From an uncultured Pseudomonadota bacterium (GTDB lineage: Bacteria; Pseudomonadota; Gammaproteobacteria; Burkholderiales; Burkholderiaceae): a stretch of 58,606 nucleotides of DNA. The position numbers and the translations under genes were made by a program. Shown here piece by piece: positions 44,501 through 57,103 of this stretch. The first letter of the stretch is position 1. Every line of letters starts with the position of its first letter. The stretch spans positions 1 through 58,606 of the forward strand of contig CAMLIZ010000005.1 of assembly GCA_946480245.1 (NCBI GenBank), given 5' to 3'. Under the pieces are notes generated by a model. The model made no database searches. It was not told where the DNA came from and worked only from the letters and a program-made list of their open reading frames with translations.

Positions 44501-47500
44501 GCTCGGGAGTTCAGCTCTTCATAGCTCCATTGCTGCGCGCCATGCGCCAGGGCCACGTGCCGGGGCGAGCGGGCAGCGTGGTCTTCGAAGAGACGGTGGA
44601 CGACATTGACCGGGTACGGCCTGGCCGTGTCGTTCCAAGCCAGCAGTACTTGGTCACGCTCGCCGGGCCCCATCATCGGCAGGCGACCTATGCATGCGTT
44701 CGGCTGGTCGGCGATGCTCTCCAGCAGCCGCGTGTAGTGCGCCGCCATGCGCTCGATGGTGCCGGGCTCGAACAAGTCGGTGCTGTACTCCAACTCGGCC
44801 ATGAGCTGGCCGCCTTCCTCCGTCAAGCTCAGGGTCAGGTCGACCTTGGCTTGCGTGCTCTGGGCCCCAACCGGCTGCACCTCCAGACCAGGCAGCTCCA
44901 GTTCGCCCCGAGGCGTGTTCTGGAGGATCAGCACCACCTGGAACACCGGCGCATGGCTGGTGCTGCGCTCCAGCTCGAGCACATCGAACAACTGCTCGAA
45001 CGGCACATGCTGATGTACGTATGCATCGAGCGTCGTGGTCTTCATCTGTTGGAGCAGTTCGACGAACGCTTCATCAGCCCGCAGCCGGGTGCGCAACACC
45101 ACTGTGTTGACGAAGTACCCGATTAGCGGTTCCAGCTCGGGTCGCCCGCGGTTGGCGATCGGCGTGCCGATGCAGATATCGTCTTGTCCGCTGTAGCGCC
45201 AGAGCAGCACCTTGAACGCAGCCGCGAGCACCATGAACAAAGTGGCGTGCGTCTGGCTCGCGAGACCGTACAACGCCGCTGCGGTCTGCTCGGGCACCAC
45301 GAACCGATGCACTGCCCCATGGTGGGTTTGCATTGCCGGCCTGGGGTGGTCCGTGGGCAATGCCAGCAGTGCTGGGGCTCCGGCGAGCTGCTGCTTCCAG
45401 TAGTCGAGTTCCGTCTCCCACACCGGACCGACCAGCCACCGGTGCAGCCAGTGCGCGTAGTCGGCGTACTGGATCGGCAGCTCCCCCAGAGGCGACGGCC
45501 GGCCCTCGTCAAAGGCCGAATACAGCTGCATGACTTCATTCACCAGCACGCCGATCGACCAGCCGTCGCAGACGATGTGGTGCACCGTAAACAGCACAAT
45601 GTGCTCGGCGTCGCCCAATCGCAGCAGACGTGCTCGCACGAGAGGCCCCGTGCCGAGGTCGAACGGTGCTTCGGCTTCCTGCTCCGTCAGGCTGCGAGCG
45701 CGCAGCTCCCGTTGTTCGGGCACGAGTTCCGAGAGATCTGTGACCGCCAGTTCCATCTCGAGCGATGGCGCGATCACCTGAGTAGGCTGTCCGTCGGTCG
45801 CGGGGAACGTCGTTCGCAGTGCCTCGTGCCGCCGCACGACTTCGTTGAGCGTGCGCCGCATCGCCTCGGTATTGAGGCGGCCACGCAGCTGCACCGCTAC
45901 CGGGATATTGAACGCTGCACCGCCGGGGCTGAGCCGCTGCAGGAACCACATTCGCTTCTGCGCGGGCGACAACTCCACTGGGTCGTCGTGCTCACGTGGC
46001 TCGATCGCCGGCACACCGGAGGCAGTCGCAAGCGAGTCCACGTGCGAGGCCAGTTCATACAAGGTTGGGCGCGTGAAGATCTCGCGCAGCTGAAGCGGCC
46101 GCTGCAGCGTCTGCTGAACCTTCGTGGCCACGCGCGTGGCCAGCAGCGAGTGCCCGCCGAGCGCGAAGAAGTCGTCTTCGCGCCCGATGCGCTCGAGCGG
46201 CAGTTGCAGCAGCTCGCTCCAGATGGCCGCCAGCGCGTGCTCGGTGTCGGTCTCGGGCGCCACATACGGCTGCTGTGCCAGCGCCCCGGCCTCGGGCTCG
46301 GGCAGCGACTTGCGGTCGAGCTTGCCCGTGGTGGTGCGCGGCAGGGCCTGCAGTGCCATGTAGTAGACGGGCACCATGAAGGCCGGCAATTGCTCGGCCA
46401 GTTCTCTGCGCAACTGTGCGGCCTGCATCGCCTGCCCCGGCTGGGGCACCACATAGGTGCCGCCCCGGTCGTCGTGCCATGCGCCGGCGGCCGCCTGGTG
46501 CACGCCCTCGCAGCCGGCCAGCGCCGCCTCCACCTGCCGCACGTCCACCCGCTGGCCGCGCACCTTGATGTCGAAGTCCTCTCGGCCCAGGTACTCCAGC
46601 GAGCCATCGGCCAGCCGCCTGACCATGTCGCCCGTGCGGTACAGCCTCGAGCCGGGCTCGCCGTAGGGGTTGGGCACGAAGCGCTCGGCCGTCAGCTCGG
46701 GCTGGCGCCAGTAGCCCCGCGCCATCCACGGGTAGTGCACGCACAGCTCGCCCACCACTCCGATGGGCTGCTCGCGCAGTCGCTCGTCCAGTACGTGCGC
46801 CCGCACGTTGTCGATGGGCCAGCCGATCGGCACGAACTGCCCTGCCCCTCCCAGGTGCTCAGGGTCGCAATAGGCGGTGTCGTTCAGTTCGGTGCAGCCG
46901 AAGTTGTTCCACAGCGCCACCCACGGCAGGGTGCGCTGCACGCGCTCTCGCAGGTGTTGGGTCAGCGGCTCGCCCGCGGTCACGCAGACCTTCAGACACG
47001 ACAGTGCCTGCGGATCGTCCAGCGCGTCCAGCACGGCCTGCAGGTGCGAGGGCACGATGAACAGCCGGCTCACCCCGCCGCGCTGCAGTGCGTCGATGAA
47101 CGCGGGCGGGTCCTTCAGCAAGGCGTCGCCCAGCACGACCTGCGGCACCCCGGCCAGCAAGGCGCCCCACAGCTCCTTCATCGACACGACGAAGGGCGCC
47201 ATGGTCTTCTGGGCCACCACGTCGTTGCTGTTCAGCGGCAAGCGCGCCTGCATCGATCTCAGCAGGTTGAGCAGTTGGCCGTGCGGCACGAGCACGCCCT
47301 TGGGCTGCCCGGTGGAGCCGGATGTGTAGGCCAGCATCATCAGCTGCTGGGCCTGCCACGGCACCGGCAGGTTCGTCTCGGGGCCCTGGGACGAGGCCTC
47401 CGCCACGCTGAGCAGTTCGATGTCGGCAACGGCCGCCTCGGGAGGCTGCGCGCCGTGCATCAGCACCTGCGGCTGGGCGTCGTCGATCAGCCGCTGCAGG

Positions 47501-56476: not shown

Positions 56477-57103
56477 ATGCTGCTGATCATCGACAACTAC
56501 GATTCATTCACCTACAACCTCGCGCAATACTTCAGGGAACTGGGTCAGGAACTGGTGGTACGTCGAAATGACGATCTGAGCATCGACGCCATCGAGTCGA
56601 TGATGCCGCAGTACATCGTCGTCTCTCCCGGGCCGTCAACGCCGGACGACGCCGGCATCTCGATGGAGGCCATCCGGCGCTTCTGCGGTCGCATCCCCAT
56701 ACTCGGCGTCTGCCTCGGCCACCAATGCATCGGCCAGGTGTTCGGCGGCTCCATCGTGCATGCGGCGTCCGTGATGCACGGAAAGACCAGCGACATCGCT
56801 CACGATGGCGCCGGAGTGTTCCGCGGCCTGTCGAATCCCCTGAGGGTGACGCGATATCACTCCCTGGCCATCGATCGTTCCTCTCTGCCGGCGAGCCTTG
56901 AAGTGAGTGCCTGGGCAACCGACGGCGAAATCATGGGGATCCGGCATAGAACGCTCGCCGTGGAAGGTGTCCAGTTCCATCCCGAGGCGATCCTCACCGA
57001 GCAAGGGCATGCGTTGCTCCAGAACTTCCTGGATGCGAACCGGACCAATGAATGGCCAGTCCGCTCGGTGGAATGCCCCGAAGACAGCGGGATCACAACA
57101 TGA
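56477..57103 (+). CDS. pabA: PabA-type glutamine amidotransferase (aminodeoxychorismate synthase component II)
   Basis: This 208-residue class I glutamine amidotransferase supplies ammonia to PabB. The start [16 protein letters not shown], the oxyanion region [13 protein letters not shown], the nucleophile in [10 protein letters not shown] (Cys ~79) and the His-Glu pair in VQFHPEA (His ~168) are all present. The sequence alone does not fully separate PabA from TrpG, but the fused PabB-PabC gene directly upstream decides. Its stop overlaps the start of the next NRPS gene (ATGA), tying PABA supply to peptide synthesis. Confidence 0.92.

Follow-up and report, generated by a model that had tools for sequence, protein, structure and literature searches.

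The topoisomerase inhibitors albicidin and cystobactamid have a backbone of p-aminobenzoate (PABA) units. The subject of this report is a nonribosomal peptide synthetase (NRPS), NRPS1, encoded on a 58,606-nucleotide contig of an uncultured Burkholderiaceae bacterium (CAMLIZ010000005.1; this whole stretch is called the window). Its second module very probably activates PABA or a closely related p-aminoaryl acid and joins it between alpha-amino acids, neighboring pab genes presumably supplying the PABA. The cystobactamid synthetase (CysK/CysG; Corallococcus loci L002, L005, L050 and L051) resembles this system in the PABA-type clade of its adenylation (A) domains, in the RHQN subtype of its acceptor condensation (C) domains and in having an aminodeoxychorismate (ADC) synthase gene beside the NRPS. 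Its cluster carries several PABA modules, a fused pabAB gene, an O-methyltransferase, TauD and CysS, whereas the window has one PABA module amid alpha-amino-acid modules, split pabA and pabBC genes and a valine at position 235 (PheA numbering). The albicidin synthetase of Xanthomonas albilineans, compared by description only, is also an NRPS that joins PABA units, according to the part of the source available (PMC8837603), but its product, in the excerpt describing it, is a poly-PABA chain with one cyanoalanine-type linker (PMC8949500).

Alpha-amino acids and PABA are combined in one assembly line by the lapcin (lap) synthetase from a soil metagenome, in which the PABA of AD4 lies apart from a tri-PABA end; in the accessible portion of the report the predicted product differs from that of the window in being an N-acyl decapeptide that contains thiazoles and four PABAs, and the cluster was found by a screen demanding Ala235 (PMC8837603; compared by description only). 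An NRPS of Pseudomonas agarici LMG 2112 (L004) shares with the window two Thr-type domains, a PABA-type A domain (VPKNVANDIK) and a RHQN C domain, but it belongs to a separate lineage of the clade (with Caballeronia, support 99/97) and no pabB-type gene was found near it. Positions 1-12094 of this locus read Ser-Thr-Thr-(VPKNVANDIK), taking its other codes to be those of Ser and Thr, and the PABA-type module holds the last A domain of the frame. P. agarici is thus a named bacterium in which mixed PABA peptides could be sought. A single PABA among alpha-amino acids therefore has precedent in the P. agarici line and, as far as the available text of the lapcin report goes, in the AD4 prediction. 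The same text states that public genomes apparently lack PABA-polymerizing clusters beyond those of albicidin and cystobactamid (PMC8837603). A cluster of cystobactamid/albicidin type was seen in Rugamonas sp. CCM 8940 (L052, G008:C27), with a pabAB fusion, an O-methyltransferase, two PABA-type A domains and an aminodeoxychorismate lyase. NRPSs that use PABA have been described before; what is new here is a variation with a Val235 pocket, one internal PABA and a coupled C-A pair, set out below.

The specificity code of the second A domain, A2 (46294..47751, minus strand; PF00501, 266.6 bits), was read from an alignment of A domains to PheA (1AMU residues 220-527, letters confirmed) made with hidden Markov models (HMMs). 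The ten code positions check out, because PheA returned its own code (DAWTIAAICK) in the same alignment and A1 and A5 gave codes that we take to be of the Thr type. A2 reads VVKFVANDTK (V235, V236, K239, F278, V299, A301, N322, D330, T331 and K517), and Asp235, described in a previous sequence-only reading as the anchor of alpha-amino groups, is replaced by valine (residue 1757 of NRPS1). That reading had proposed the same code by eye and the loss of Asp235; all ten positions proved right. The background was formed by 121 long NRPS proteins with 777 A domains, drawn by similarity to A2 and not at random, and 772 of these domains could be read at each of the first nine positions of the code. 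Asp235 is absent from 13 of the 772 and Lys239 is present in 11; alanine or valine at 235 together with Lys239 occurs in eight, and the same eight also have Asn322 and Asp330. They belong to the window, to four close relatives and to three domains of one protein (P0041). Against this similarity-drawn background, the code of A2 exceeds chance.

To screen A domains from soil, the lapcin study, in the text available, used a DNA signature of known PABA domains; Ala235, which the study treats as conserved in them, is part of it (PMC8837603). This signature occurs once in the window, at 47173..47210 on the minus strand, where 37 of its 38 letters match and the only mismatch changes the codon of Ala235 into GTC (Val); no occurrence was found in 100 shuffles. 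Exact matches were present in 13 of the 53 loci fetched. As the only mismatch falls in the codon of residue 235, a screen with the exact published signature would miss A2. Hence A2 belongs with the PABA-type domains if these are defined by the absence of Asp235, and falls outside them under the stricter definition by Ala235.

Kinship points to the same substrate class. A maximum-likelihood tree of A domains was built from 51 rows, excluding hits that span fewer than 280 residues, L039 (the same stretch as L001) and L005_+12001. A single branch, with support of 99/95 and present in 200 of 200 bootstrap trees, splits off 22 PABA-type rows including A2. The clade comprises a cystobactamid-type subgroup, an AVKN[IV]ANDIK/V subgroup, the Caballeronia-P. 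agarici pair and the window family, with no resolved branching order among them. It includes three domains of two Corallococcus contigs (L002 and L005), two of which share their contig with CysS: the radical SAM enzyme encoded there matches CysS (PDB 9n1b) across all 645 residues, and a pabAB fusion, an O-methyltransferase and TauD adjoin the NRPS on the same contig. Because of this full-length match in that company, the Corallococcus cluster is taken to be a genuine cystobactamid cluster, and A2 is monophyletic with adenylation domains from a verified PABA synthetase. The cystobactamid-cluster domain with the reading nearest to A2 is AVKFIANDIK. The code that the sequence-only reading gave for PABA domains of albicidin and cystobactamid synthetases, A-V-K-Y-V-A-N-D-A-K, did not turn up in the open-licence literature searched, nor did its first eight letters.

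The genome scan retrieved PABA-type domains from Caballeronia, Actinoplanes, P. agarici, Rugamonas, Sorangium and others. The AVKN[IV]ANDIK/V group (L003, L006, L008, L010, L011, L012 and L013) is spread over Actinomycetota, Myxococcota and Fibrobacterota, and a pabB-type gene adjoins the domain in four of its seven loci (L006, L008, L012 and L013). Four loci with codes D[LI]LQ[VI]ANNSK (L014-L017) were set aside, as they keep Asp235 and fall outside the clade. The window family itself did not turn up in named genomes: a pattern-based scan of genome contigs gave 17 loci, these four included, the best only 50% identical; among 399 genomes of the order of Rugamonas the motif was present in two of the 12 best loci fetched; and the 569 matches in plasmid records were all below 60% identity.

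The C domain that precedes A2, C2 (47821..49116, minus strand; PF00668, 356.7 bits), belongs to a distinct subtype. In a tree of 44 C domains, from which L039 and pieces no longer than 380 residues were excluded, one clade (93/97) contains all 17 C domains that stand before a code-read PABA-type A domain, together with three more (L002, L007 and L009) whose acceptors were not code-read. Residues R1456, H1457 and G1494 of C2 are shared by 20 of the 20 C domains of this acceptor clade (17 of 17 without those three) and by none of the 25 others, while P1452 and T1379 are found in all 20 and, each, in two of the 25. These 25 are all the remaining C domains; an earlier comparison group of 19 omitted four of the dual type and two with a DARHCSFMIK acceptor. 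Across the 121 proteins there are nine occurrences of the motif P-[VILMF]-[MLIVF]-x-R-H-[QE]-N, and eight of these precede the eight PABA-type A domains, without exception. The ninth lies at residue 7151 of P0057, near the end of a 7242-aa NRPS and with no A domain after it, as if the partner A domain were on another protein. With its Arg-His pair and its place in the acceptor clade, C2 is of the PABA-acceptor subtype as defined here, and we infer that this subtype accepts an aryl amine. No paper combining 'RHQN' with 'condensation domain' was found in the open-licence literature.

On the plus strand, facing away from NRPS1, lies an operon whose genes could provide the substrate. It starts with dat (52807..54225), encoding a diaminobutyrate--2-oxoglutarate transaminase (NF005393, 748.7 bits against a cut-off of 671), followed by an mbtH-like gene (54302..54511; PF03621, 71.2 bits). 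The next gene, pabBC (54591..56441), encodes an ADC synthase component I (TIGR00553, 360.3 bits against 328.4) fused to an aminotransferase class IV domain of the lyase type (PF01063, 120.8 bits), and pabA (56477..57103) encodes a glutamine amidotransferase of ADC or anthranilate synthase (TIGR00566, the trpG/pabA subfamily, 270.6 bits against 121). A pabB-type protein above a curated cut-off is thus accompanied by an amidotransferase partner, the narrower equivalog models for both lying below their cut-offs; for pabBC the best-scoring pabB model is NF005698 (395.3 bits, cut-off 452). The TGA of pabA overlaps at 57100 (ATGA) the ATG of a second synthetase gene, NRPS2 (57100..58606), whose first C domain lies in the window and which runs off the window end. 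The coupling of pabBC and pabA to a second NRPS in a divergent operon had been proposed by the sequence-only reading, which made no mention of dat, mbtH or the C2 subtype. Xanthomonas NRPS loci with a dat gene for diaminobutyrate (Dab) have been described, in the part of the source available (PMC3849588).

NRPS1 (35596..52458, minus strand) is a single open frame of 5620 aa, with five C-A-carrier (T) modules, their C and A domains delimited by HMM, and a terminal thioesterase (TE; 35707..36390; PF00975, 111.3 bits); all its domains share the minus strand. The codes of A1 (49429..50871; DFWNVGMVHK) and A5 (36706..38211; DFWNIGMVHK) presumably specify Thr. A3 (43108..44601) has the code DLESIGGVMK and groups with the domains DLEHNTTVSK of P0111 and DIDNVGCAGK of P0002 (98/97 in the A tree). 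Given its Glu239 and this grouping with DLEHNTTVSK, which we take to be a Dab code, its substrate is probably a basic residue (Dab, ornithine or lysine), perhaps Dab. C4 (41419..42756) falls in a separate C clade (100/100) and is assigned to the dual condensation/epimerization type on a motif that we presume to be diagnostic; a domain of this type would leave residue 3 in the D form. A4 (39901..41361; DAMFLGCTFK) would take an aliphatic residue. The predicted order is Thr-PABA-(D-basic)-aliphatic-Thr-TE, and the Thr-PABA-x-aliphatic-Thr order already proposed had been read correctly, as had the placing of PABA among Thr and other amino acids. PABA-type domains account for one of the five A domains of NRPS1, so that the consecutive PABA modules of the albicidin/cystobactamid family are not seen in it (NRPS2 lies mostly beyond the window).

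The A2 code, the clade membership, the C subtype, the gene content and the pabA/NRPS2 overlap are read directly from the sequence, and on them a model of the substrate, the chemistry, the order of NRPS2 and NRPS1 and the product can be built. The model proposes that PabA and PabBC make PABA from chorismate, and that A2, with a pocket devoid of the alpha-amino anchor, would adenylate it and load it onto T2 (46024..46236, minus strand; PF00550, 59.6 bits). C2 would then form the bond between the aniline nitrogen of PABA and the threonyl carbonyl held on module 1, and the chain would continue via the PABA carboxylate to the probably basic residue 3. Dat probably supplies diaminobutyrate, either for residue 3 or for NRPS2, and MbtH would assist the A domains. 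NRPS2 probably works ahead of NRPS1, whose TE would release the product. The view that supply and selectivity indicate the same building block, put forward before from the code and the pab genes, is now favored also by the cystobactamid clade, the acceptor-type C domain and the pabB-type neighbors found elsewhere.

Several observations weigh against this assignment. A2 has Val and not Ala at position 235, and at position 331 it has Thr, whereas Ile or Val is found there in most of the PABA-type clade; known substrates in the clade are limited to its cystobactamid members, the other lineages being assigned by kinship; and the label on the C tree needs three changes as drawn, because three rows of the clade have no code-read acceptor. 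The two atypical pocket residues would fit a domain that takes another aminoaryl acid or a tailored PABA (for instance a hydroxylated, 3-amino or N-methyl form), with PABA as precursor only. Modules 5 and 6 of the cystobactamid synthetase use tailored PABAs, according to the portion of the source available (PMC7966384), and a cystobactamid-cluster domain of the same clade has the unusual code AIKYYSIDVK. This alternative is nonetheless unlikely, since Pfam scans of 19 window proteins or pieces outside NRPS1 recognized neither an O-methyltransferase nor an oxygenase nor a CysS-type enzyme (the rest of the cluster lies beyond the window), and the radical SAM enzyme close by, with 22% identity to CysS over 237 aligned residues, has a small open reading frame (ORF) of its own.

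The pab genes raise a different doubt, as pabABC may be folate genes that adjoin the NRPS by chance, A2 taking an unrelated acid. PabA passes only the subfamily model common to trpG, the narrower pabA models being below their cut-offs; in Actinoplanes and P. agarici, both on long contigs, no pabB-type match was listed nearer than about 29 kb, so that two of the seven genomes with the domain on a contig above 10 kb have no such gene nearby, and in four of the 12 genomes the contig that bears the domain is at most 8.1 kb long and has no pabB-type gene. Against this, six of the 12 genomes (Corallococcus, Cellulomonas, a Myxococcales metagenome-assembled genome (MAG), Rugamonas, a Polyangiaceae MAG and Sorangium) have a pabB-type gene no more than about 5 kb from a PABA-type domain, as do five of the seven with contigs above 10 kb, a count that leaves out the Polyangiaceae MAG (8.9-kb contig). 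Another pabBC (P0225) and P0041 are encoded on contigs of equal length (4,620,066 bases) and do not enter these counts. The protein searches scored the candidates sharing most words with the query and listed at most the best 120; among the matches listed, seven close relatives of pabBC (73-77% identical) stand apart from the next (54-55%). With the pabA stop overlapping the NRPS2 start, and with the A-domain clade and the C subtype independent of the pab genes, a chance neighborhood is very improbable. Even less credit is given to module 2 being inactive or skipped, with a product devoid of PABA, although the albicidin line has an inactive A domain and cystobactamid a similar scheme, in the available text (PMC8949500). 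By eye, module 2 keeps intact A3, A5, A7 and A10 motifs, the HHxxxDG motif of C2 and the carrier serine; Pfam recognizes C2, A2 and T2. Its decay is disfavored because A2 (82-87% identical) and C2 (78-81%) are conserved in the same module of four relatives. Incorporation of PABA or a close p-aminoaryl acid by module 2, fed by the pab genes, therefore remains the favored explanation.

These four relatives, from jgi or ena sources and presumably metagenomic, were found among the matches listed, at 80-86% identity to the A2 domain. In bins of 100 residues, identity to them is 59-93% over residues 1145-2144 of NRPS1, and the bin that follows drops to 33-42% in every one of the four; on the upstream side identity remains 61-78% to about residue 845 in three relatives and falls to 44-57% in P0083. 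Compared with each other (ten pairs), the PABA modules show 78-84% identity in their C domains and 82-90% in their A cores, whereas ten other pairs sharing the first three code letters have A cores of 52-91% and C domains of only 22-69%. A good A-domain match is thus ordinary in these proteins, and the matching C domain is special to the PABA module. The T domains of the PABA modules are 50-76% identical, which is not outstanding against 189 unlike pairs (median 47, maximum 80). A shared C-A-T block was accordingly rejected by this control, T not exceeding background and other same-code A cores being equally conserved.

The C-A pair comes after modules with the codes DFWNVGMVHK, DLFNHALTYK, VDTVVSLGEK or DARHCSFMIK, no A domain being seen ahead of it in P0111, and it precedes three kinds of A domain, or a TE. 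Either the pair moves or its neighbors are exchanged. The proposal slightly preferred is that a unit of an aryl-amine-accepting C domain and a Val235 A domain has been combined blockwise with different partner modules, so that five synthetases with four upstream codes and with PABA internal or terminal would constitute a natural combinatorial set of single-PABA peptides, the Arg-His pair of the C domain serving as a readable mark of aryl-amine acceptors. A single PABA in an otherwise ordinary peptide, with its own PABA genes adjoining, would broaden the known chemistry, and Val235 domains are overlooked by exact screens that require Ala235. The coupled pair and the mark in its C domain offer a test case both for exchanging modules and for the discovery of further acceptors of aryl amines.

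Downstream of NRPS1, a B12-binding radical SAM enzyme is encoded at 33061-35133 and a 53-aa ORF, with a purine-rich stretch ahead of its start and no Pfam match, at 35241-35402, both on the minus strand. A strong hairpin lies between them (12-bp stem, fold of -33.5 kcal/mol, z -4.8), which is absent from the terminator scan list. The ORF, hairpin and enzyme are laid out like the precursor and maturase of a ribosomally synthesized and post-translationally modified peptide. The enzyme was considered as a CysS-like tailoring enzyme and rejected, in view of the low identity given above and of its own small ORF followed by the hairpin; CysS was not among its PDB matches, and the CysS-type enzyme of the albicidin/cystobactamid family is not found within the window, beyond which the cluster extends. 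The family of the B12-binding enzyme looks rare, with 23 proteins at E values up to 1e-60 among 7997 candidates scored, one of them at 98%. A 4'-phosphopantetheinyl transferase gene (32126-32938, minus strand; 4PPT_N, 68.6 bits) has an in-frame stop at 32474-32476, past which transferase-like sequence resumes, by eye, in the same frame. Positions 1-14253 of the window carry type VI secretion system (T6SS) genes, encoding a T6SS FHA protein, a DUF4280 protein, a Peptidase_M91 effector-like protein and an ATPase that we presume to be ClpV-like.

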